Below are positions 5,684 through 44,086 of a DNA stretch of 44,086 bases, one piece after another. How positions within the stretch are numbered: position 1 is the first letter of the stretch; each line of letters opens with the position of its first letter. The translations under genes were made by a program, and so were the position numbers. The DNA is from an uncultured Fluviicola sp. (GTDB lineage: Bacteria > Bacteroidota > Bacteroidia > Flavobacteriales_D > Crocinitomicaceae): the NCBI GenBank assembly GCA_937919725.1, contig CALFOS010000087.1, positions 1-44,086 of the forward strand, read 5' to 3'. Below the pieces are notes generated by a model, which saw only the letters and a list, made by a program, of their open reading frames with translations, searched no databases and was not told the origin of the DNA.

Positions 5684-7816
5684 TTACTTACTCTTTAGAT
5701 CGAACGATTCGCCAACTACTTTAAACGAAGTTCGTCTGTTCCGCTGATGGTACTCTTCTTGGAGTTCTTCAGTTGACTGTGACATAATGTAGGCTTCGGT
5801 CAAAATGATTCTGTTTCCGTTCTCATCAAGAACTGGTTTTTTAGCTTCTCCTTTCAAATAATTCGGTTGGTATTCGCCATAACCGATTGCTTTTAATCGA
5901 TTGGTTGGAATACCTTTTGCAAGTAGATAATCAACGCACGATTTTGCTCGTTTCTCAGATAAGTTCTCATTATACTTATCTGATCCGCGAGAGTCTGTAT
6001 GAGAGTTGATCTCTACTATCAAATTATTATTCAGTATTAGGAAATCATACAACTCATCCAAAATTTCTTTTGAAATTGGACGTAGAACAGATGAATTGAA
6101 GTCGTACTCAATACCATCAATCTCAATCTCATCCGTCGGAATCGGACGGAGGTAAAAATCTTTAAGTAGAGTGGTAGTCTGTGTGATCGGTTTTGTATTG
6201 ACCGCTCCAGCATCTGCAAAATAAGAGGACTTCGTCGCTTTGATATAGATTTCCTGATTTTTGTCTAATTCTTTGCTGTAAAACCCGTTTTCATCAGTTA
6301 TTATCTCGAAGGGGTCAAATACAAAATCCACATCTTTGAAGGTCAAGGTAGTATTGGGAAGTTTTTCTTGTGTATCGTCGTCGAATGCGAATCCTTCCAA
6401 GAAGATGCGGATTGGCTCGTTTTTTACTTTATAGATGTCATAACAGTGACCATTTTCGCAAGGCGCGCGATCGCTAGCGAAATATCCGTAATGCATCATT
6501 GCGTCCCAAATAATGTATGCGTCGTCCTGACTCGAATTGATCGGAATTCCCATGTTTTGGGGGTCATCAAATGAGCGATTCATTTTGTTGTAGGATGCTT
6601 TGTAAATGTCCAATCCTCCGATGGAGTTGTGTCCATTTGAACTGAAAAACAGAACCGTCGACACTTCGTGAAAGAAAGGTGCAACTTCATCCAATTCAGA
6701 GTTGATTGGTCGGCCTAAATTTTTCGCCTCACCAATAACGTTGCCCGTTTCGTCGAGGGCAATTTTCCACAAATCCATTCCGCCTTCACCGCCAGGGCGA
6801 TTGCTCGAAAAATACAGGGTGAGTCCATCCGCAGTCACAAACGGGTTGATACTGCGATAACCTGGCAAATTAACCGCCTCCGGTAGTTGAAACGCTTCGT
6901 AGAATTTTAGATCGACCATTCGAGCGAGGTAAATGTGCTGCTCAGATCGGTCTTCGTCGTTCCATCGGGTGTAGTATATAACGTTGTTAATACTCAAAGT
7001 ACTCGAAGCGTCGTGGTGACCGGAATTGAGTGGACGACCGAAATTCGTTGCTTTTGCCCATGTGCTGTCCTGGTTCATTTCCGTCCAGTAGAGATCACAT
7101 AAATATGCCGATTCTTGTTTTTCTGGGTCAAAAAGCACTCCGCCGTCGCGCGCACTCGTGAACATCAACCTGTTTTCGTTGCCAAAATACATTGGGGCAA
7201 ATGAGGATGTACCACGATTGAAAACGGACGTATCGGCCAATTCAACACTAATTTTATTGCGTGTATTTGTTTCATCCATCGCGTAATAACACCCGGTAAT
7301 ACTTAATTGCGCGCTTCGAAGCAAAGAATCCGAATAGTTCTCCGATGCGATGTATTCCTCGAAGGTGCTAAGCGCGGCTTCATGTTGATTTACATTCATC
7401 TGAGATATCGCTAGATAGTATAAATCTTCGGGGTAAGAATCCAGGTTTTTTCTCGCCGAAAAATAACTTTCTGCCTTCGCATAATCGTACGTTCGCATGT
7501 AGCACATCCCAATTTGGTGTTCGATGTAGTCTTTTACAGGAACCACGCGGTTCGAATCGATCTCAGTCCCTTTGCTTTTTAAGCGTTGTTTCGATACACT
7601 TACTTCGTAAGGTAGAATAACAGATTGCAAGCCAGACGTGTCGCTGAGGGCATTCTGGTAGTTCAATAATGCGTTGTGGTAATCGGCATGGCGATAGTAT
7701 TCGTCGGCGTGATAGAGCCACACTTTGCGCGATTGACTTGTTGCCAAAAATGGAAGCAACATCAAACCAATAAGGAGGTATTTTTTCAAGAGCAGCTTCA
7801 TTATAATCGGGGACAA
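5684..7816 (-). CDS. OmpA-family protein with TPR, PD40 propeller and CRD domains (PorE-like, T9SS associated)
   Basis: N-terminal TPR-like region (DYHNALLNYQNALS), PD40 repeats (FSSNRPGGEGGMDLWKIAL), CRD-like insert (EGFAFDDDTQEKLPNTTLTF), OmpA_C (VEINSHTDSRGSDKYNENLSEKRAKSCVDYLLAKGI). Same domain order as P. gingivalis PorE. Confidence 0.9.
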   Translation of the reverse strand: MSPIIMKLLLKKYLLIGLMLLPFLATSQSRKVWLYHADEYYRHADYHNALLNYQNALSDTSGLQSVILPYEVSVSKQRLKSKGTEIDSNRVVPVKDYIEHQIGMCYMRTYDYAKAESYFSARKNLDSYPEDLYYLAISQMNVNQHEAALSTFEEYIASENYSDSLLRSAQLSITGCYYAMDETNTRNKISVELADTSVFNRGTSSFAPMYFGNENRLMFTSARDGGVLFDPEKQESAYLCDLYWTEMNQDSTWAKATNFGRPLNSGHHDASSTLSINNVIYYTRWNDEDRSEQHIYLARMVDLKFYEAFQLPEAVNLPGYRSINPFVTADGLTLYFSSNRPGGEGGMDLWKIALDETGNVIGEAKNLGRPINSELDEVAPFFHEVSTVLFFSSNGHNSIGGLDIYKASYNKMNRSFDDPQNMGIPINSSQDDAYIIWDAMMHYGYFASDRAPCENGHCYDIYKVKNEPIRIFLEGFAFDDDTQEKLPNTTLTFKDVDFVFDPFEIITDENGFYSKELDKNQEIYIKATKSSYFADAGAVNTKPITQTTTLLKDFYLRPIPTDEIEIDGIEYDFNSSVLRPISKEILDELYDFLILNNNLIVEINSHTDSRGSDKYNENLSEKRAKSCVDYLLAKGIPTNRLKAIGYGEYQPNYLKGEAKKPVLDENGNRIILTEAYIMSQSTEELQEEYHQRNRRTSFKVVGESFDLKSK

Positions 7817-8793
7817 ATTTTAGCGGTTTGTGGTTTGACTTTCTGACGGATATACGTGAAGGATAGTTCAAAGCCACCTCGTCCAGAAGACGCTGTAGAC
7901 AGACTCGAAATATTCACGTCGTATCCAATTTTCGCAACGAATTGATCCATTTTCGCTCCTAGTGTCACGATTCCGGCATCTTCATTTCTATAGATTAAGC
8001 CTGCCAAAAGGTATACATCTGCTCCTTTCAAGTAGAATCCTGCCTCCAAAGCGTAGGTTTGTTCCTGAAATGTGCGTTGCTGCATGAAAAGCACTTTTGG
8101 AAGTAAATAAAATGTTTCTGTGATGTTGATTCGTGTTCCTACGTGACCGTAAAATCGCATCGGCAGCGTATTGTCGTTGCTGAAAAACGATTCCCGTGGT
8201 TCAATCAAATTGAAGCCTGAAATTCCAATAAATGGATTCAATCGTGCTTCCTGCTTCGCGAAGAAATACATAAACCCGACGTTCGTAACAGGCACAATTA
8301 CTGATTGACCTGAAAAATTTTCGTTTGCACTAATCGTTTGGTCAAATCCTCCACCATTTTCTGTGGTGTATTGATTGTCGTACGTCAATAGCTGATATTC
8401 AATGGATTTCTGACCAAGTCCAGCTTGAATTCCAAAGGAAATATTGTGTCGCTTTTGCTTGTCGATAGGTGTGGTGTACGCCACCGAAACTGCCCCTTGC
8501 ACCGAATTATAGTTTCCAATTCCTGCTCGAAAGTTCATAATTTGTCCACCAAATCCCCATTTTCCCTTCGGGAGATCGAGACTGATAAGTGCAGCACTGT
8601 ATGGTTTGTAATTCACCGATTTCCATTGGTTTCTATATTGTGCATGCAAGCGCCAATTTCCCTCAAAAACTCCCGTCATGGCAGGATTCAAAAAGAGTGG
8701 TGCTGCGTCGTACATTGACATGTGGCCGTCCTGACTGCGTGCGGTAAATGAAGCGAAAGCCAGTAATAGGATGCTGAAAAATTTCTTTACCAT
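7801..8793 (-). CDS. PorP/SprF family type IX secretion system membrane protein
   Basis: QDGHMSMYDAAPLFLNPAMTGVFEGNWRLHAQYRNQW is the PorP/SprF N-terminal signature. Confidence 0.93.
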   Translation of the reverse strand: MVKKFFSILLLAFASFTARSQDGHMSMYDAAPLFLNPAMTGVFEGNWRLHAQYRNQWKSVNYKPYSAALISLDLPKGKWGFGGQIMNFRAGIGNYNSVQGAVSVAYTTPIDKQKRHNISFGIQAGLGQKSIEYQLLTYDNQYTTENGGGFDQTISANENFSGQSVIVPVTNVGFMYFFAKQEARLNPFIGISGFNLIEPRESFFSNDNTLPMRFYGHVGTRINITETFYLLPKVLFMQQRTFQEQTYALEAGFYLKGADVYLLAGLIYRNEDAGIVTLGAKMDQFVAKIGYDVNISSLSTASSGRGGFELSFTYIRQKVKPQTAKICPRL

Positions 8794-8795
8794 GC

Positions 8796-11700
8796 TTATC
8801 GAATTAGGGTGACATCACCCGATTGCTTAATAATTTTTCCGTTGGCAAGCTCCACCGAAAATGTCCACGTATATACTCCGAGCGGCACAGGTTCACCTTT
8901 AAATGTTCCGTCCCAGCCTACCAAATCTCCGTTCGATTCAAAAAGTAGTTCGCCCCAATGGTTGTATACTTTATAGTCAACCGATTTAAACGGACCACCG
9001 CGAATGATGTGTACGTCGTTCTCCCCATCTCCATTCGGAGAGAAACCACTTGGCAATACTGGAGGAAGGGCTATCGTCACAATTTTGGCAATCGTGTCGG
9101 TACAACCATTCGCATCTGTTACAATTAATGTCACCGTATAATCACCTCCATCGTTGTAGTTGTGAATTGGATCTTGAAGGTTGTCGCCTTCACCATCGCC
9201 GTAATTCCACAACCAATTATTGATTCCCGTTCCAAATGATTGATCTGAGAAAAAAATGTTTTCCAGAACAAGCGCTGGATTTGGAGTGAAGGTGAACTCG
9301 GCAGTTGGTGCGCCGTAAATAAATAAATTCATCGTCGTGTCATCCACGCATCCCAGGGCCGAGGTTACCGTAAGCGTAATTGGATATCCACCGGAACTAC
9401 TGAAAATATGTGTTGGGTTTTGCACGGATTGTGTATCGCCATTTCCAAAATCGTACAACCATTGGTTAATACTTCCTCCCGAAATGAAACTCAAATCGTT
9501 GAAGATAATCGGCGTGTTTTCGCATGCCACCGTGGGTGAGAAGTTTGCAAGAGGAACCGGATTCACTGTAATCGGATAGGATATTGTATCAGAACAGCCG
9601 TTTGACCCTGTTGCAATTAATTGCGCCGTATAGTTTCCATTCGCAGGATATAAATGTAGGGGATTCGAAGCAATCGAGGTTCCGCCATCACCGAATTGCC
9701 AATCCCACGTGGCAACTGTTCCGGGCGATATGGTTGTTAAATCGGTGAACACGGTGTTGTCGCCATAACACGCAGTCGTTTGACTAAAGTTAGCAACTGG
9801 TGCTGCGAGGAAAGTGATCGTAATGATGTCGTTATCGGGAACACAACCAAATGCACTCGAAGTTGTTAAAATCAGATTTACGGATCCATTCGAAACGTCC
9901 AAGGCCGATGGAATATAATTGGTGATCAAGAAGTTATTGCTTGGATTAAACGTTCCCGTTCCCATCGTTGACCAAGAGCCGGTTGTGTTGGCTCCCGTGA
10001 TCGTCCCATTCAATTGAACCACTTCGTTGCTACAAAAATCTTGATTGACTCCCGCGTTGGCTTTTGGAGGATCAATGAAGAAAATGCGAAGCGAGTCTTG
10101 CAGCGCTGGACAAATCCCCGTTGTCGTGGTCAGAAACACATCTACAAATCCTGCCGTAGTATCGGGTGTGGTGATCGTATATTGCGTATTCAAAGAGCCG
10201 GGTGTAATCACCGATCCAAATCCTGTGGTTGTCCAAGTGCTGGAATATCCAGAAGTGACAGTTCCACTGAGGTCAAGTAGGTTTAAGTTCGCACACACAC
10301 TGTCGCTTGCTGTTATGGCTACTGTTGGAGCACTCTGAAATGTTACGAGAATGTTGTCCTGTTCAGCAAGGCAGTTCCCGTTGTTGGTGGAAGTGAGAGT
10401 AAGCGTAATATTTCCAACCACGGTATCCGCGGAGCTAATGTTATAGTTCGTTACTGGATTCGACGCACCTGGAGAATATGTTCCAGAACCAGATGTGCTC
10501 CAAATGCCTGTTGAGCTTGAACCTGTGACGCTTCCATTTAAATTGATTTGCGTTTGCGTAGCACATACCACCAAATTGGAACCAGCAAATACTGACGGAG
10601 CTTCAGTGAAATAGATGATCACGGAATCAACATCGTCGGGACAGGCGAAGAAACTTCCTGCGGAAGTGAGGTAGAGAATAACGCTGTCGTTGGCAATATC
10701 GGTAGGGGATGGGGTGTAATTCGTTGATAAATTCCCCGGATTTCCAAATGCGCCTCCGCTTCCACCTGTCCAATCGGCACCTGCTGCGTAGGTGACGTTT
10801 CCATTTATCGGAATCAAGCCAATGTTGTTCTTGCAATAAGAATTGTTGCTGCCGGCTTCAGCTTGTGGCGATTGCACAAAACTAACGATGAGCGTATCGC
10901 GGACAGGATCACAATTCCCTGTAGATTCCAAAATAAACGTGAGCGGACCTTGTGTGTAGTCACCAGGACTGAACGAATAAGTTGTTACTAAATTTGTCGG
11001 ATTATTCAGCGTTCCTGTTCCATTCACTACTGACCAAATACCTGTGCTCGTTCCACCAGAAACAGTACCGTTTAAATCAATTGTGGCTACGCCGTTGCAT
11101 AGCGTCGTATCGTTTCCTGCCTTGGTGATCACTTTACGGTTGAAGGAGGACATGTAATGGTACAAACATCCTGTAGTTGCACCTCCGTTAATTACGCCGA
11201 GGGAAAATAAACCTGTGGAGTTGGTGATCAAATTTTGTGTCCCTACCCCAATTGTAGCGGTAGTAAAGTCAATTTGTGCTCCGCGCCAAAGTCCTCCCGT
11301 TCCGGGAACAATATTGAAAGCCGTGAATGGAATGGGTGCGCCACTTCCGTTGAGTTGAAAGTTGAAATGATCCCCGTCTCTGCACAATATGTTCAGAAGG
11401 AATTGCTGTGCGTTGTTTCGGGCAAATGCGACTTCATCAGATCCTGCACAATTGGTTGGCGGGATAATTGCCATCCCGAGCTCGCAGCCGTAGCCGGACA
11501 TGTGAACGACATAAACCGGTTTATCGGCATAAATAGAGGTAAGCGGTTGAGTGATGGAATATTGCCATGTGCTTCCTTGGTTCATCAATTGAGTAGTTAC
11601 GGCGCCATCATTCACTGTAATGCTGGTGAAGTTCTCGCTTGGAATGATGAATACGGATTCATTCGATCCTGGATTGAGAAATCCTTTATTGATGATGTAT

Positions 11701-12536
11701 TCCGTCCCAATCACGTCTGTTGGAACAATTTGGTCCCCCATCAAATCGAAACAGGTTCCGCCACCTGAAGGATTCACGGAGTCGTCGTTAATCGTAACAG
11801 AAACGGGTTTGTCTGATACTACAATCGATCCGCTCAAGGTATTTCCTGCTGCGCTGGTGGTTTGGGTGATATTTTGACAGGTGTATACATTTCCTGCTAC
11901 GGGAAGAAGCACCGAATAAGTGACGTTCGCTGGATGTCCTCCAACCACTGCACAGCGTGGGGTGATGTAGATGGTTGTGTTGTCTTCTGTGGCGATTACC
12001 GAGAAATATTGATAGGGTTGAGTGACTATGCCATCCAGGTTTCTATCTACGGTGAGCAATTTATTGTTCCACAAGGTTTGAAAAGGCACAACAAACTCAG
12101 TTCCCATCCCGTTTTGACCTTTCAAGGAATACGTTTCGGGATTGTTAGGTGTACCTGGAGTAATTGTAATGAGATCGGATATAAAATCGTACACGACGGT
12201 AATCAATTCATCCGAAGTAATTTTTATTCCTGATGTGAGCACAGCATCTGCAGGTTTGCTCTCCAAGTCGTCAACGATGTGATTGAGTGGAATGGAACTA
12301 ACCGAGTTCGCAGGAACCACAAAAGTGGTGTCGTAGCCTTGAGACGGCAGTTGCAATCGCACCGTAGAAGGACTTGCGAAGGAAGAAATTCGAAATGCGA
12401 GCTGCACGTTTCCGTCGTGATCGGGAGTTACCCATGGCGCGGCAAACCAGAAAACCGTGTCAATTTGTGCGTGCAGATTGCTCCATGTCATCTGACCGAG
12501 CATGCATACCAAAATGATGTATTTTAATTGCTTCAT
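8796..12536 (-). CDS. Giant secreted adhesin-like protein: IgGFc-binding-like N-terminus, about five ~85-aa Ig-like repeats, three PKD-like domains, type B (gliding motility) C-terminal sorting domain
   Basis: IDTVFWFAAPWVTPDHDGNVQLAFRISSF and VIATEDNTTIYITPR (IgGFc_binding-like); WDWQFGDGGTS and WLWNYGDGEGD (PKD); LPSGFSPNGDGENDVHIIRGG...WDGTFKGEPVPLGVYTW (CHU_C/CTD-B). Confidence 0.92.
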   Translation of the reverse strand: MKQLKYIILVCMLGQMTWSNLHAQIDTVFWFAAPWVTPDHDGNVQLAFRISSFASPSTVRLQLPSQGYDTTFVVPANSVSSIPLNHIVDDLESKPADAVLTSGIKITSDELITVVYDFISDLITITPGTPNNPETYSLKGQNGMGTEFVVPFQTLWNNKLLTVDRNLDGIVTQPYQYFSVIATEDNTTIYITPRCAVVGGHPANVTYSVLLPVAGNVYTCQNITQTTSAAGNTLSGSIVVSDKPVSVTINDDSVNPSGGGTCFDLMGDQIVPTDVIGTEYIINKGFLNPGSNESVFIIPSENFTSITVNDGAVTTQLMNQGSTWQYSITQPLTSIYADKPVYVVHMSGYGCELGMAIIPPTNCAGSDEVAFARNNAQQFLLNILCRDGDHFNFQLNGSGAPIPFTAFNIVPGTGGLWRGAQIDFTTATIGVGTQNLITNSTGLFSLGVINGGATTGCLYHYMSSFNRKVITKAGNDTTLCNGVATIDLNGTVSGGTSTGIWSVVNGTGTLNNPTNLVTTYSFSPGDYTQGPLTFILESTGNCDPVRDTLIVSFVQSPQAEAGSNNSYCKNNIGLIPINGNVTYAAGADWTGGSGGAFGNPGNLSTNYTPSPTDIANDSVILYLTSAGSFFACPDDVDSVIIYFTEAPSVFAGSNLVVCATQTQINLNGSVTGSSSTGIWSTSGSGTYSPGASNPVTNYNISSADTVVGNITLTLTSTNNGNCLAEQDNILVTFQSAPTVAITASDSVCANLNLLDLSGTVTSGYSSTWTTTGFGSVITPGSLNTQYTITTPDTTAGFVDVFLTTTTGICPALQDSLRIFFIDPPKANAGVNQDFCSNEVVQLNGTITGANTTGSWSTMGTGTFNPSNNFLITNYIPSALDVSNGSVNLILTTSSAFGCVPDNDIITITFLAAPVANFSQTTACYGDNTVFTDLTTISPGTVATWDWQFGDGGTSIASNPLHLYPANGNYTAQLIATGSNGCSDTISYPITVNPVPLANFSPTVACENTPIIFNDLSFISGGSINQWLYDFGNGDTQSVQNPTHIFSSSGGYPITLTVTSALGCVDDTTMNLFIYGAPTAEFTFTPNPALVLENIFFSDQSFGTGINNWLWNYGDGEGDNLQDPIHNYNDGGDYTVTLIVTDANGCTDTIAKIVTIALPPVLPSGFSPNGDGENDVHIIRGGPFKSVDYKVYNHWGELLFESNGDLVGWDGTFKGEPVPLGVYTWTFSVELANGKIIKQSGDVTLIR

Positions 12537-12541
12537 GAGGT

Positions 12542-13534
12542 CTAGTTTTTCTCTTTTTCTTCAATTGATTTCTTCAACTCATCAATAATACTTTTGTTGA
12601 GCTCGTCGTCTTTTTCGGTCATCGATGGTTTTTTGCGACTGATCACATACGAAAGCATTACTTCGTGCGAACCAGCTTGGTAAGAACTGAGCTTGGAAAG
12701 CGTGTAATCGTAGCCGTATGCCATGTTAAATTTGTCGCCAATTTGCATTCCCATCGAAACGCCAACAGCATCATCGGAACGGTAAATCAACCCAAACCAA
12801 TACTTTTTGTTAAAGGTCGTTTTCAGCATCGCAGAGCACTGAATCGGCACAGGTTTAACGTAACGAACCAAAAAGCTTGGTTGAATATCGATCGGCATTT
12901 TCTTTTTCTTCGGATCAGCATTGATGTTGATGTTGTATCCTGCGATAGCCGTATAATGAAATTGTAAGTTGCTGTTGTAGGAGGTAAATTGAATGCTCTT
13001 CCCCAATAAATGATGCAAGGATCCCATCACAAAAAACTTCTTCGAATACAAGTGAAATCCAGTGCTCACGTCCACCGCGCTGGCAGAATAAACACTTCCC
13101 GTTAATACCTCATCTCCCTGGTCTGCCAACTGAGCATCGTATAATTTTACGCGGTATTGCATATATCCAGGCTGAACTCCCAAGCCGAGTTTTACTTTGT
13201 CTGAGAGTTTGAAATGCTGTGCGTAATTCAAATAGAAGCCCGTATTTTGAGTAATTCCTGCGGTTTCAGAGATAAAGGAAACTCCATATCCTATTTTTCC
13301 TTCATTCTTTGCTGACCCACTAAAATTTCCCAGAATTAAACTCGGTGCTCCGTCAAATCCAACCCATTGATTGCGGTAAGTAATATTGGCTTGATGAACA
13401 TCTCTACTTCCTGCTATCGCAGGATTGTAGTAGAAGTCATTCATCAAAAAATTGGAATAAACTGCCCGCTGTTGAGCAGTAGAGAAGCTTGAACAAGCAA
13501 GCACAAACACGGCTATGATCAATAGTGTCTTCAT
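12542..13534 (-). CDS. PorP/SprF family type IX secretion system membrane protein (second copy)
   Basis: QQRAVYSNFLMNDFYYNPAIAGSRDVHQANITYRNQWVGFDGAPSL signature. Confidence 0.93.
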   Translation of the reverse strand: MKTLLIIAVFVLACSSFSTAQQRAVYSNFLMNDFYYNPAIAGSRDVHQANITYRNQWVGFDGAPSLILGNFSGSAKNEGKIGYGVSFISETAGITQNTGFYLNYAQHFKLSDKVKLGLGVQPGYMQYRVKLYDAQLADQGDEVLTGSVYSASAVDVSTGFHLYSKKFFVMGSLHHLLGKSIQFTSYNSNLQFHYTAIAGYNININADPKKKKMPIDIQPSFLVRYVKPVPIQCSAMLKTTFNKKYWFGLIYRSDDAVGVSMGMQIGDKFNMAYGYDYTLSKLSSYQAGSHEVMLSYVISRKKPSMTEKDDELNKSIIDELKKSIEEKEKN

Positions 13535-13535
13535 C

Positions 13536-16500
13536 TTACTTTTTCGTTTTAAGAATTAATACCGTGCCTTTAAATATGTCCGCTTCGTTGCCGGCGTCGT
13601 TGATGTCTATTACGTAGTAATAGGTTCCGTCGGGTAGCAACTCACCATTGTAGGTTCCGTCCCATGGGTAGTTGTAGCCTTTTGATTCATAAAGTTGCTG
13701 ACCCCATTGGTTGTATACTTCCACACGAGCATTTGGGTAAAGCAAATTGATGAAGTCCAATTTCCAGATGTCATTTTTGCCGTCACCATTCGGAGAAATT
13801 GCGTTGGGAATAAGTGTGGTAATCTCGTTGGTTACTGTGTTGATGATAATCGTTTGTGAAATACTATCGGAACAGCCGAGAGAGCCGTAAACGTATTGCG
13901 TAATCACGTAAGTTCCGTTGTTGAAATAAGTATTACTCGGATCCGAGCTCGTGGATGAATTTCCATTTCCGAATTCCCAGTAGTAGGTTGATCCGTTCAG
14001 GGATGTATTGATGAAGTTGAAAACCGCACCAATGTTGAGCCCATTATTCGTGTTGAGGCTGAAGCTTGCGATAGGGAAAGAGGGTATATTCAAAGTGTCG
14101 ATGATAGTGTCGTAACAGCCGTTCACCGTTCCAACAATGTGGGTGATCGTGTAATCTCCATTCACTTGAAAAAGCTGGGTTGCATTCTGTGTGGCACTGC
14201 TGCCGGCTCCTCCAAAATCGTAGTACCAATAATTGAGAGCGTCGGTATTTGTGGTCGACGCGTCGGTAAAATTGACGATGATTTGATTATTCGGACAGTC
14301 GGAAGTTGCGGTGTAAGCAGCAATTGGTATTTCGAACGCGTCGACTGTTTGTGTTAAGGTGTCCGTGCAGCCTACGCTAGATGTTACAATTAATTGTACA
14401 TCATAACTTCCTGCGGAGGAATAGGTGTGCGCCGAGTTTTGTGTCGTCGCGAATAATGCATCGCCGAAATTCCATTGCCAATTCGTGAGTGTGCCGTAAC
14501 CAGGAAGCGAGAAATCGGTGAAACTGGACCCCGTGTAGAGGCAATTTTCGGTAAAGTTGAAGTTCGCAAAAGGCGGGGCAACAAAGGCAATTTGCACAAC
14601 ATCATTTACCGCGTTACAACCATTGTTGTTGGTGGATGTTAACGTTAAAATGAGGTTTCCTGATGATATTTCACTGGCAGTAGGCACATAATTCGCAGTT
14701 AGATTTGTTGGTCCTCCAGAATATGCTCCGGCGCCTCCCGACCAAACTCCTGTGGTAGTTGGTCCAGAAACAAGGCCTGCCAAATCCACACTTGCGTCGT
14801 TCGAACATACGAGGAAATTTACGCCTGCGTCCACAGTAGGTGATGGCGTGAAAAGCACTAGAATGCTGTCGTATTCGGGAACACAACTTCCATTTCCTGT
14901 AGATTCAAGGTAGAGCATGATTGATCCACTGTTCACATCCGCAGGACTTGGCTGATAGTTCGCGTTCATGTCCAAATTGTTGGGCTGAAAAATTCCACCT
15001 CCCGACGTTGTCCATTTTCCTGTGGTGGTCGCTCCGGAAACAGATCCAGAAAGCGAAACGGTTGGTGCATTTTGACAAACAGAAATCGTGTCAGCGCCTG
15101 CGTCGACAATAGGGGGACCGGTGAAGGTGACTTCCATAGTGTCAGATTCGGCTTCGCAATTGCCCATGTTGGTGGAGGTAAGGACGAGCTGAACGGTTCC
15201 AGCACTTAAATCAGTGATGGATGGAACATATTGTGCGTTCAATGTTGTTGGATTTGGAGTGAATGTTCCGGATCCCAAAGTGGTCCAAATTCCGGTGTTG
15301 GCTCCTCCCGTTACTCCACCCGCTAGCTGAACAGTCGAATTGTTTTCGCACACTGTTTGATTGGCAGATGCAGAGACGATAGGCGCTGCAGTTACAGTTA
15401 AAACAATTGTGTCTTTTCTAACAGGGCACGATCCTGTGGACGTTAAAATCAGTTGAATGGGTGAAACAAGGGTGTCGAGTTGACTCGGCAAATATTCGTT
15501 GATGAGTGTGGTATTAGTTAATGCAAAAGAGCCAAATCCACTTGTGCTCCAACTGCCTGTAATGTCACCACCGCCAACTAATCCTGCCACGGGCAATGTT
15601 CTGTTTGCACAGATGGTCGTGTCATTTCCTACGGTAGCAAACGGATACGATTCAAATTCGGATAAGAAGGCGTAACCGGTTCCAGTTCCATTGTTACCGT
15701 GGATCATACCTAATCCAAAAATATCTCCGGCGTTCGTTACCTCATTATAGGATCCAACGGGAATATCAGCAGCCGAAAAATAGATCGCGGCCATTTTGTA
15801 ATTCCCAGATGTTCCGGGAACGTTCACAAATTGTGGTGCGGTGATTAATGTTGTATTTCCATTAATAGCGAATTGATTTTCAAATCCTGATCGCGTATAC
15901 AAGAATAATCCGAGTGAATCAGTAGATGTACGAGTGAATGCAGTCGAATACGTTCCGGCACAACTCAAATGGGGTACCTGAGCGCCACTCATTTCACAAC
16001 CGTAGCCTGATGCATGCCATACGTAAACGGGCTTTGTGGTTTGAATATACGTCTGGGGATCATTTAAATCAATTTCATACGTTTCGCCCCAATTTATTAA
16101 ACTAGTTGTTGTACCCGAATTTGTAATAGTTATTCCTGTACTATTTTGAGTTGCGAGAATATAAACGCGGTCGAAGGAGGACGTGCCTTTGTGAATGACG
16201 AAGTTTTTCCCGGTGTAGGAAGCGTTCGTGATTTGATCGCCCATGGAATTTGAACAGGCACTTTCTATTAATGCTCCCGAAAAAACAGTAAGTGCAATCG
16301 GCTTGTTCGAAGACACGATCGATCCAGCCAAGGTAGTGGAACCGAGTGTGTTCATGTCTCGTGCACTGTACGTTTGACCACTATTTAGCACCACAGTAAA
16401 AGTAGTGTTCTGTGCATGACCCGTGATGGCTGTGCGTGGGGTGATCAAAACAGTGGTGTTGTCCTCAGTTGCCACAATGTCGATCGACGAAAACGACGCT

Positions 16501-16979
16501 GGAGTAGTCACGGCATTGTTCCAATGTTTTTGGAAAGGAGTATAAAAATTCGTTCCGATGGCTTTTTTTCCCTTTAAGGAAAATATTTCTTTGTTTGTTG
16601 AAGACCCAAGTTCGTAAAAAGCACCAATATTAGCCGTTGAGACTATTTTCATTCCATTATTGGAGACTACATCTCCTGCGGGACTCTCGATCGAAGCTAA
16701 GAACGAAGTTAAATCAACACTGCTTGTGCTGTTCGCAGGGATCGAGATCGAAATAGGCGTGAAGCCACTGTTCGCTGGAAGCGAAACAGTAACAGTTGCA
16801 GGATTTTCGTAGGTCATGAAGCGCAAACGAATGGGTGAATCGCCAGCAGAGGCGGAAACTTCAGGGGAAGCGAACCAGAATAGCGTGTCGATTTGGGAAA
16901 AACTTGCGGACGATAAAAGAACGCCGAGCATCATCACAAACCACTTTGGACCAAGATTCATCGTTGGTTTAGTTTTCAA
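13536..16979 (-). CDS. Giant secreted adhesin-like protein (paralogue): IgGFc-binding-like N-terminus, about four ~85-aa repeats, three PKD-like domains, type B CTD
   Basis: IDTLFWFASPEVSASAGDSPIRLRFMTYENPATVTVSLPAN; VATEDNTTVLITPRTAITG; WQWNFGDALFATTQN; LIPNAISPNGDGKNDIWKLDFINLLYPNARVEVYNQWGQQLYES...WDGTYNGELLPDGTYYYVI. Confidence 0.92.
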   Translation of the reverse strand: MKTKPTMNLGPKWFVMMLGVLLSSASFSQIDTLFWFASPEVSASAGDSPIRLRFMTYENPATVTVSLPANSGFTPISISIPANSTSSVDLTSFLASIESPAGDVVSNNGMKIVSTANIGAFYELGSSTNKEIFSLKGKKAIGTNFYTPFQKHWNNAVTTPASFSSIDIVATEDNTTVLITPRTAITGHAQNTTFTVVLNSGQTYSARDMNTLGSTTLAGSIVSSNKPIALTVFSGALIESACSNSMGDQITNASYTGKNFVIHKGTSSFDRVYILATQNSTGITITNSGTTTSLINWGETYEIDLNDPQTYIQTTKPVYVWHASGYGCEMSGAQVPHLSCAGTYSTAFTRTSTDSLGLFLYTRSGFENQFAINGNTTLITAPQFVNVPGTSGNYKMAAIYFSAADIPVGSYNEVTNAGDIFGLGMIHGNNGTGTGYAFLSEFESYPFATVGNDTTICANRTLPVAGLVGGGDITGSWSTSGFGSFALTNTTLINEYLPSQLDTLVSPIQLILTSTGSCPVRKDTIVLTVTAAPIVSASANQTVCENNSTVQLAGGVTGGANTGIWTTLGSGTFTPNPTTLNAQYVPSITDLSAGTVQLVLTSTNMGNCEAESDTMEVTFTGPPIVDAGADTISVCQNAPTVSLSGSVSGATTTGKWTTSGGGIFQPNNLDMNANYQPSPADVNSGSIMLYLESTGNGSCVPEYDSILVLFTPSPTVDAGVNFLVCSNDASVDLAGLVSGPTTTGVWSGGAGAYSGGPTNLTANYVPTASEISSGNLILTLTSTNNNGCNAVNDVVQIAFVAPPFANFNFTENCLYTGSSFTDFSLPGYGTLTNWQWNFGDALFATTQNSAHTYSSAGSYDVQLIVTSSVGCTDTLTQTVDAFEIPIAAYTATSDCPNNQIIVNFTDASTTNTDALNYWYYDFGGAGSSATQNATQLFQVNGDYTITHIVGTVNGCYDTIIDTLNIPSFPIASFSLNTNNGLNIGAVFNFINTSLNGSTYYWEFGNGNSSTSSDPSNTYFNNGTYVITQYVYGSLGCSDSISQTIIINTVTNEITTLIPNAISPNGDGKNDIWKLDFINLLYPNARVEVYNQWGQQLYESKGYNYPWDGTYNGELLPDGTYYYVIDINDAGNEADIFKGTVLILKTKK

Positions 16980-42750: not shown

Positions 42751-43050
42751 ATGAAAACAAGAAAAAAGTTCAGTAAAGAATTCAAACGGAAAGCCATTGA
42801 AATAAGCAACAAAATTGACAACATCAAAGATGTTGCAATAAGTTTAGGGATACGAGAAGCATTATTATATCGTTAGCGAAAGGAGTTTTATCAAAAAGAA
42901 GGCGAAGTATTCTCAGGATCGGGAGTAACATCAACACGTCAAGATGCAGAAAAAGAGGAATTTCTTAGACTACGCAAAGAAAACCGAGATTTGAAACTAG
43001 AGCGTGACAGATTAAAAAAGGCGGTAGGCATCTTTTTCAAGAACGACTGA
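42751..43050 (+). pseudogene. IS3-family transposase orfA, interrupted by an in-frame TAG at 42874-42876
   Basis: MKTRKKFSKEFKRKAIEISNKIDNIKDVAISLGIREALLYR*RKEFYQKEGEVFSGSGVTSTRQDAEKEEFLRLRKENRDLKLERDRLKKAVGIFFKND*, an HTH_Tnp_1 / leucine-zipper pattern. Confidence 0.85.
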
Positions 43051-43468: not shown

Positions 43469-44086
43469 TTACTCGAAAGCCATCCAATGTACATCCATAT
43501 TTTGCCCCCAAGTACTTCCATCTACACGGTTAATGATCATGGTAAACCCAGTACTTGTGACTTGGCGCGTCGTTACATCGAATGAGTCGTCGAAAATACT
43601 TCCAACTTGAGCCGATGCTGTACATATTACAGAAGGGGTGCCAACAAATGGAGTAGTAAATACCACGTTTACGATCATGATTTCCAATCCGCCGCTTGCC
43701 CCGACGTTCTGAGTTCCTCCTTGCATCGCGCTAAAGAAATTTGTACCTGGTACACCATCAGCACCATTAGCACCGTCTAGTCCAGGAACGCCATCAGCAC
43801 CATCAGCACCGTCAACACCATTAGCACCGTCTAGTCCAGGAACGCCATCAGCACCGTCTAGTCCATCAGCACCATTAGCACCGTCTAGTCCAGGAACGCC
43901 ATCAGCACCGTCTAGTCCAGGAGCACCATTAGCACCGTCTAGTCCAGGAGCACCATTAGCACCGTCTAGTCCAGGAACGCCATTAGCACCGTCTAGTCCA
44001 GGAACGCCATCAGCACCATCAGCACCGTCAACACCATTAGCACCGTCTAGTCCAGGAACGCCATCAGCACCGTCTAGTCCAGGAGC
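43469..44086 (-). CDS. Collagen-like (Gly-X-Y)n protein with C-terminal H-type-lectin-like domain (5' end beyond window)
   Basis: Minus frame is open from the window edge to the stop at 43469. 43739-44086 encodes 38 uninterrupted G-X-Y triplets (GLD/GAD/GAN/GVP/GAP/GVD...), then TNFFSAMQGGTQNVGASGGLEIMIVNVVFTTPFVGTPSVICTASAQVGSIFDDSFDVTTRQVTSTGFTMIINRVDGSTWGQNMDVHWMAFE*. The ORF track shows only the part after the internal Met (43726). Confidence 0.85.
   Translation of the reverse strand, partial: APGLDGADGVPGLDGANGVDGADGADGVPGLDGANGVPGLDGANGAPGLDGANGAPGLDGADGVPGLDGANGADGLDGADGVPGLDGANGVDGADGADGVPGLDGANGADGVPGTNFFSAMQGGTQNVGASGGLEIMIVNVVFTTPFVGTPSVICTASAQVGSIFDDSFDVTTRQVTSTGFTMIINRVDGSTWGQNMDVHWMAFE
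43739..44086. repeat. In-frame tandem repeat encoding the collagen-like stalk (9-bp triplets organised mainly in ~27-bp units)
   Basis: Recurrent GGAACGCCATCAGCACCGTCTAGTCCA / GGAGCACCATTAGCACCGTCTAGTCCA variants on the plus strand. Confidence 0.95.

Follow-up and report, generated by a model that had tools for sequence, protein, structure and literature searches.

The window, meaning the whole stretch of DNA analysed here, is the complete 44,086-nucleotide contig C87 from the 3.04 Mb genome (315 contigs) of an uncultured Fluviicola sp. in the family Crocinitomicaceae. At its right-hand end, on the minus strand, it carries part of a fibre gene with the following features:

43469..44086, minus strand: 3' part of a gene for a fibre with a collagen stalk and an H-type lectin tip, 205 codons plus stop; the frame is open at the contig end and the 5' end is missing
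43469..43471, minus strand: stop codon TAA of the fibre gene, from the open reading frame
43475..43672, minus strand: H-type lectin domain PF09458, within the six-stranded model of the tip (pLDDT 86; Pfam, AlphaFold2, Foldseek)
43673..43738, minus strand: neck and first tip strand, FFSAMQGGTQNVGASGGLEIMI, conserved in the relatives L031 and L032
43739..44080, minus strand: collagen-like stalk of 38 consecutive Gly-X-Y triplets, running off the contig (Pfam Collagen and triplet count)

A preliminary description of this DNA had placed a collagen-like protein with a lectin-like head at 43469-44086 and noted that it continues beyond the window, and both statements are accurate: a minus-strand frame of 205 codons encodes collagen and H_lectin sequence and is still open where the contig ends. 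It had also raised a frameshifted upstream part as a sign of a dead gene, of which nothing is visible in the available fragment, the 205 codons being free of internal stops and frameshifts. The frame contains 27/54-bp DNA repeat units, and these probably account for the break in the assembly at this point. The encoded tip is 60-80% identical to its homologues from other genomes, with dN of 0.20-0.36 and dS mostly saturated, indicating that the frame is not a product of chance. A dead gene was rejected on the basis of the open frame and the conserved tip, and a contaminating contig because cellular genes are found throughout. By sequence the rest of the 44-kb contig looks cellular, with aspS, cysS, polA and hemA/hemC among its genes, and Pfam identifies the type IX secretion system (T9SS) genes PorP/SprF and CHU_C.

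Two other features of the contig were recorded. The minus strand at 5684-16979 holds a type IX cluster with two giant cargo proteins of PKD/IgGFc_binding/CHU_C composition (8796-12536 and 13536-16979), PorP/SprF-like frames at 7801-8793 (profile-tested) and 12542-13534 (recognised by eye), and an OmpA/PD40 protein. Approximately 0.4 kb past the 3' end of the fibre gene, on the plus strand at 42751-43047, lies an IS transposase remnant (HTH_Tnp_1, resembling the first frame of IS3 elements) with an in-frame TAG at 42874-42876.

The stalk occupies residues 3-116, where the at least 38 perfect Gly-X-Y triplets claimed previously are present as 38 in a row, the kind of long unbroken run that characterises bacterial collagen-like proteins, and it matches PF01391 Collagen at 70.5 bits against a cut-off of 27.2 (E 1e-19). 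X positions are filled by Ala (18), Leu (10), Val (9) and Thr (1), and Y positions by Asp (21), Pro (9) and Asn (8), so that the Asp-rich character previously ascribed to the Y positions is correct (21 of 38). Proline occurs at Y only and there is no Lys or Arg in any triplet. This combination of 21 Asp with no basic residue makes the stability of a triple helix uncertain, and calcium is a possible stabiliser of the acidic stalk.

The resemblance of the C-terminus to H-type lectins, for which the preliminary description had proposed a profile search, was upheld both by that search and by the predicted fold. Residues 139-204 match PF09458 H_lectin at 31.8 bits (cut-off 24, E 1.6e-7), rising to 34.5 bits in a search of the genome, in which the window gene is the sole match; the same profile matched nothing in 14 control genomes. 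Searches of PDB sequences with the tip or a tip profile returned chance matches only, to dihydroorotate dehydrogenase N-termini, and the fold was therefore reached through structure. An AlphaFold2 model of the tip (pLDDT 85.9) is a six-stranded antiparallel beta-sandwich whose best Foldseek match in the PDB is the phage phi297 tailspike gp61 (2.9e-5), with the Helix agglutinins at 6e-5 to 1.2e-4 (HAA 6.0e-5, HPA 8.8e-5) and further matches to SLL-2, the R1 pyocin fibre, AP22 gp54, LKA1 gp49 and discoidin II. Against viral structure models the tip matched H-type lectin and tail fibre proteins. By profile match and predicted fold the tip is thus of the H type, a fold used in lectins as well as in trimeric spikes.

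Any ligand specificity would probably differ from that of HPA, whose GalNAc-contact residues are Asp26, Arg63, Trp83, His84 and Tyr89. In an alignment to HPA, Arg63 falls on Asp or Asn in all seven homologous tips and positions 26, 84 and 89 are not conserved, while the alignment of Trp83 is ambiguous; the HPA-type contacts are accordingly not kept. The seven tips align with one another over approximately 90 residues with 28 invariant columns, and the invariant polar and aromatic positions (D50, D51, S52, N70, R71, D73, W77 and Q79 in fragment numbering) lie in or beside the beta3-beta4 and beta5-beta6 loops of the model. This clustering suggests a conserved ligand site, and we infer that such a site, with a specificity other than that of HPA, is more likely than none. 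Glycan binding by the tip is plausible as a putative function.

Taken as a whole, the window fragment is with good probability the distal half of a surface adhesin of mosaic (chimeric) and probably trimeric build. A less probable but serious alternative is that the H-type domain acts solely as a C-terminal trimerisation cap, which would register and nucleate the collagen without binding glycans, any adhesion being left to the acidic stalk. The leading PDB match to a tailspike with LKA1 gp49 and AP22 gp54 close behind, the predominance of tail proteins among the named viral structure matches, and the loss of the residues aligned to HPA Arg63, His84 and Tyr89 are all consistent with a cap. Against it, the relative in L022 has no collagen stalk yet its tip shares 63% identity with the window's, which indicates that the tip is not retained solely for collagen nucleation; the invariant loop positions point to a ligand site, and other members of the fibre family described below bear adhesin-type tips.

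The adhesin reading draws on complete relatives for the part of the gene that is missing here. Four complete H_lectin-tipped relatives were recovered, from a Crocinitomicaceae genome of the same genus as the window (L022, on one contig with L033), a MAG named Aureispira (L031), UBA10329 (L034) and a further member of the Crocinitomicaceae (L035). All four start with a signal peptide and a base domain of approximately 115 residues (QAPEGFKYQAVVRD...SVPYALYAKTSGN), and three of them, that is all except L022, have a collagen-like stalk of varying length.

Four copies of this base domain are present in the window's own genome. Three belong to complete genes with other C-termini, on C108, C237 and C209 (the last with an S74-like end), and the fourth lies at the left end of C21, where it enters a collagen stalk and leaves the contig, directly after a gene whose 153-aa product bears a T9SS type A sorting domain. 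Two more free halves are C81, which has a leader of NVGIGTTTP type and ends inside a collagen stalk, and C157, which carries collagen and S74. The collagen ends of C81 and C157 have k-mers of up to 21 bases in common, and pairing them leaves C21 and C87 as the unpaired halves, so that C21 probably carries the 5' half that the window gene lacks. The collagen units of C21 and C87 are unlike each other in both sequence and codon use, with no common k-mer of 12 or more, and a search of the genome with the repeat sequence found the window alone. We therefore regard C21 as the likely 5' half by elimination. The pairs could instead be C21-C157 and C81-C87, in which case the window protein would begin with the NVGIGTTTP-type leader of C81 rather than a base domain like that of the Bdellovibrio mosaic adhesive trimers (MATs); C81 likewise ends within a collagen stalk, and the start of C157, GANGLDGATGPAG, resembles C21 at the protein level. 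This arrangement is improbable given the k-mers of up to 21 bases common to C81 and C157, the lack of any common k-mer of 15 between C21 and C157, and the presence of the base domain in every complete H_lectin-tipped relative.

Assignment of C21 to the window gene would place it in a large family. The base domain was found in 36 of 40 relatives (approximately 110 copies) and in 39 of 198 genomes of the phylum, and 34 fibres examined for their tips and stalks include collagen (10), Lcl_C (5), S74 (4), H_lectin (4) and a YadA head (1), alongside unassigned tips, so that one base is combined with diverse C-termini, as in the MAT fibres of Bdellovibrio. Isolated base domains, stripped of collagen, match NF053851 Bdello_MAT_N at E <= 1e-3 in 34 of 34 cases (best 3.6e-12); the scores displayed for members, 36-40 bits, lie below the curated cut-off of 60 bits. 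This level of similarity suggests remote homology to Bdello_MAT_N rather than membership of it. The base-domain model (pLDDT 87) has no PDB match at E <= 1e-3, like the N-terminal domain of the MAT paper itself. The window gene is most likely a member of a widespread family of adhesive fibres with interchangeable parts, related to the fibres with which predatory Bdellovibrio grips its prey. Other arrangements seen in the survey include a 963-aa base-domain fibre with 237 consecutive Gly-X-Y triplets, counted by pattern (L078:647-3538), and, in L040 and L042, an H_lectin-ended beta-helix-like frame with another frame, carrying the base domain, immediately behind it.

The most constant companion of these fibres is a small T9SS cargo gene. 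Of 54 loci with enough flanking sequence for inspection, 51 have a gene for a T9SS type A protein adjacent to that of the fibre. At 31 of 34 loci this is a protein of approximately 155 aa with the type A sorting domain, encoded on the fibre strand immediately upstream of the fibre gene, at anything from a 26-bp overlap to a 72-bp gap, and all 31 match TIGR04183 at E <= 1e-3. Across the phylum the neighbour measures approximately 150-180 aa (L046-L072, L075-L094 and others). In distant genomes it is adjacent at 20 of 20 loci, 18 times upstream and twice immediately downstream, as judged by a model that includes the sorting domain and would catch any T9SS type A protein. Por_Secre_tail matches none of the 34 fibres themselves, SprA is present in the window's genome, and a comparison of downstream neighbours between genomes revealed none in common. 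Two tandem base-domain fibre genes behind a single T9SS type A gene were observed in L081 and L085. We posit that the small cargo protein could be a surface dock or export partner for the fibre.

Tips may be exchanged between genomes. For the window tip, identity is 80% to the tip of the MAG named Aureispira (L031) and 63% to the same-genus tip, whereas the C21 base domain is 66% identical to the same-genus copy and 52% to the Aureispira copy; these identities run in opposite directions, which fits tip exchange. The H-type tip is rare, being found in 6 of 240 genomes of the family and above the cut-off in 7 of 395 of the class. A tail-module gene on a viral contig (L036:2209-3780) has collagen and beta-helix-like repeats together with an H-type tip that shares 63% identity with the window's, and has no base domain; this fits an exchange in which phages are among the partners. 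A tblastn search with the tip in annotated phages and plasmids returned nothing.

It is very improbable that the window piece is itself the tail fibre of a prophage or of a phage remnant, and a phage origin of the locus was rejected: the viral gene just described and PHROG tail-fibre profiles that match the collagen part speak for it, but collagen repeats attract unspecific PHROG matches, the remaining genes on the contig look cellular with no phage module seen among them, and cellular relatives have a signal peptide, a base domain and mostly a T9SS neighbour, whereas the phage gene is without the base domain.

A surface adhesin of the proposed kind might work as follows. The missing 5' half would encode a signal peptide and a beta-rich base domain of approximately 115 residues, as in the relatives. 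Three chains would come together at the H-type tip, in the manner of HPA, discoidin and tailspikes, and the tip trimer would nucleate the collagen triple helix. The base domain would remain at the outer membrane, perhaps held by its T9SS-exported neighbour, while the stalk would hold the trimeric tip away from the cell, where it may recognise a glycan displayed by prey, a host, a particle or an adjacent cell, its specificity being unlike that of HPA. Over evolutionary time tips and stalks would swap between genes, genomes and phages, with base and neighbour staying constant. More tentatively, we propose a phylum-wide two-gene display in which the T9SS type A cargo is a dedicated dock, and perhaps an export escort, for fibres that combine a MAT-like base with interchangeable stalks and tips; the window gene would be its H-lectin/collagen version, with a tip common to a phage tail gene.

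MAT fibres are the means by which the predator Bdellovibrio recognises many kinds of prey, and a family of MAT-like mosaic fibres with a conserved T9SS-sorted neighbour is a more interesting result than the fragment from which it was traced. The pairing of a related base domain with a single kind of small T9SS cargo gene offers a concrete candidate for the export and docking of such fibres, and the family provides a large collection of adhesin tips to search, from a phylum that matters in water, soil and hosts. The tip common to a phage tail gene suggests that recognition modules pass between phages and bacteria, and a bacterial collagen with a lectin head could serve as a biomaterial.

We found no description of the fibre/T9SS type A pairing, or of this architecture in Bacteroidota with T9SS or in Crocinitomicaceae, in a literature search of incomplete coverage. 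In MAT fibres the signal peptide is followed by a conserved beta-rich domain of approximately 130 aa that has no PDB relatives and positions interchangeable tips, among them S74, beta-sandwiches, TNF-like and C-type lectin domains (PMC10769870). The fibres described here resemble them in the signal peptide, in a beta-rich N-terminal domain without PDB relatives and in swappable tips that include S74 and known lectin folds. They differ in phylum and in an N-terminal match below the curated cut-off of NF053851, in their common collagen stalks and H-type tip, neither of which appears in the main text of the MAT paper (PMC10769870), and in the T9SS type A gene next to them, of which that paper gives no description. 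Legionella Lcl is a second precedent, with a collagen-like stalk and a C-terminal trimeric glycosaminoglycan-binding head, and its listed homologues in Bacteroidota include Fluviicola (PMC11162425). It shares with the window protein the collagen stalk ending in a head, and some other fibres of the family bear Lcl_C (DUF1566) tips; the Lcl head is C-type-lectin-like, however, and its N-terminus is a short amphipathic helix rather than a beta base domain. Pfam found no DUF1566/Lcl_C head in the window protein, whose only head domain is H_lectin.

Likeness to the H-type lectins themselves (HPA, SLL-2, the discoidin II C-terminal domain) extends to the Pfam H_lectin domain, the predicted fold and an expected trimer, at 17-21% identity, with the GalNAc residues of HPA not kept and the domain here placed on a bacterial collagen stalk. 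Phage tailspike and R-pyocin domains (phi297 gp61, LKA1 gp49, AP22 gp54, R1 pyocin) have the same predicted fold (Foldseek E 3e-5 to 3e-3), but sit in trimeric fibres of virions or pyocins and not on cell-surface collagen stalks. The logic of ficolins and collectins invoked by the preliminary description stands as an analogy of shape, a collagen stalk with a lectin head; these are animal proteins with an unrelated fibrinogen-like or C-type head, and the window protein has no Pfam match to either domain. That interpretation holds in part, as a collagen-stalk fibre with an H-type tip. Lcl and the Bdellovibrio MAT fibres are closer precedents than ficolins and collectins; the fibre type itself is a variant of known mosaic fibres, and the conserved T9SS-sorted neighbour is its newest element.
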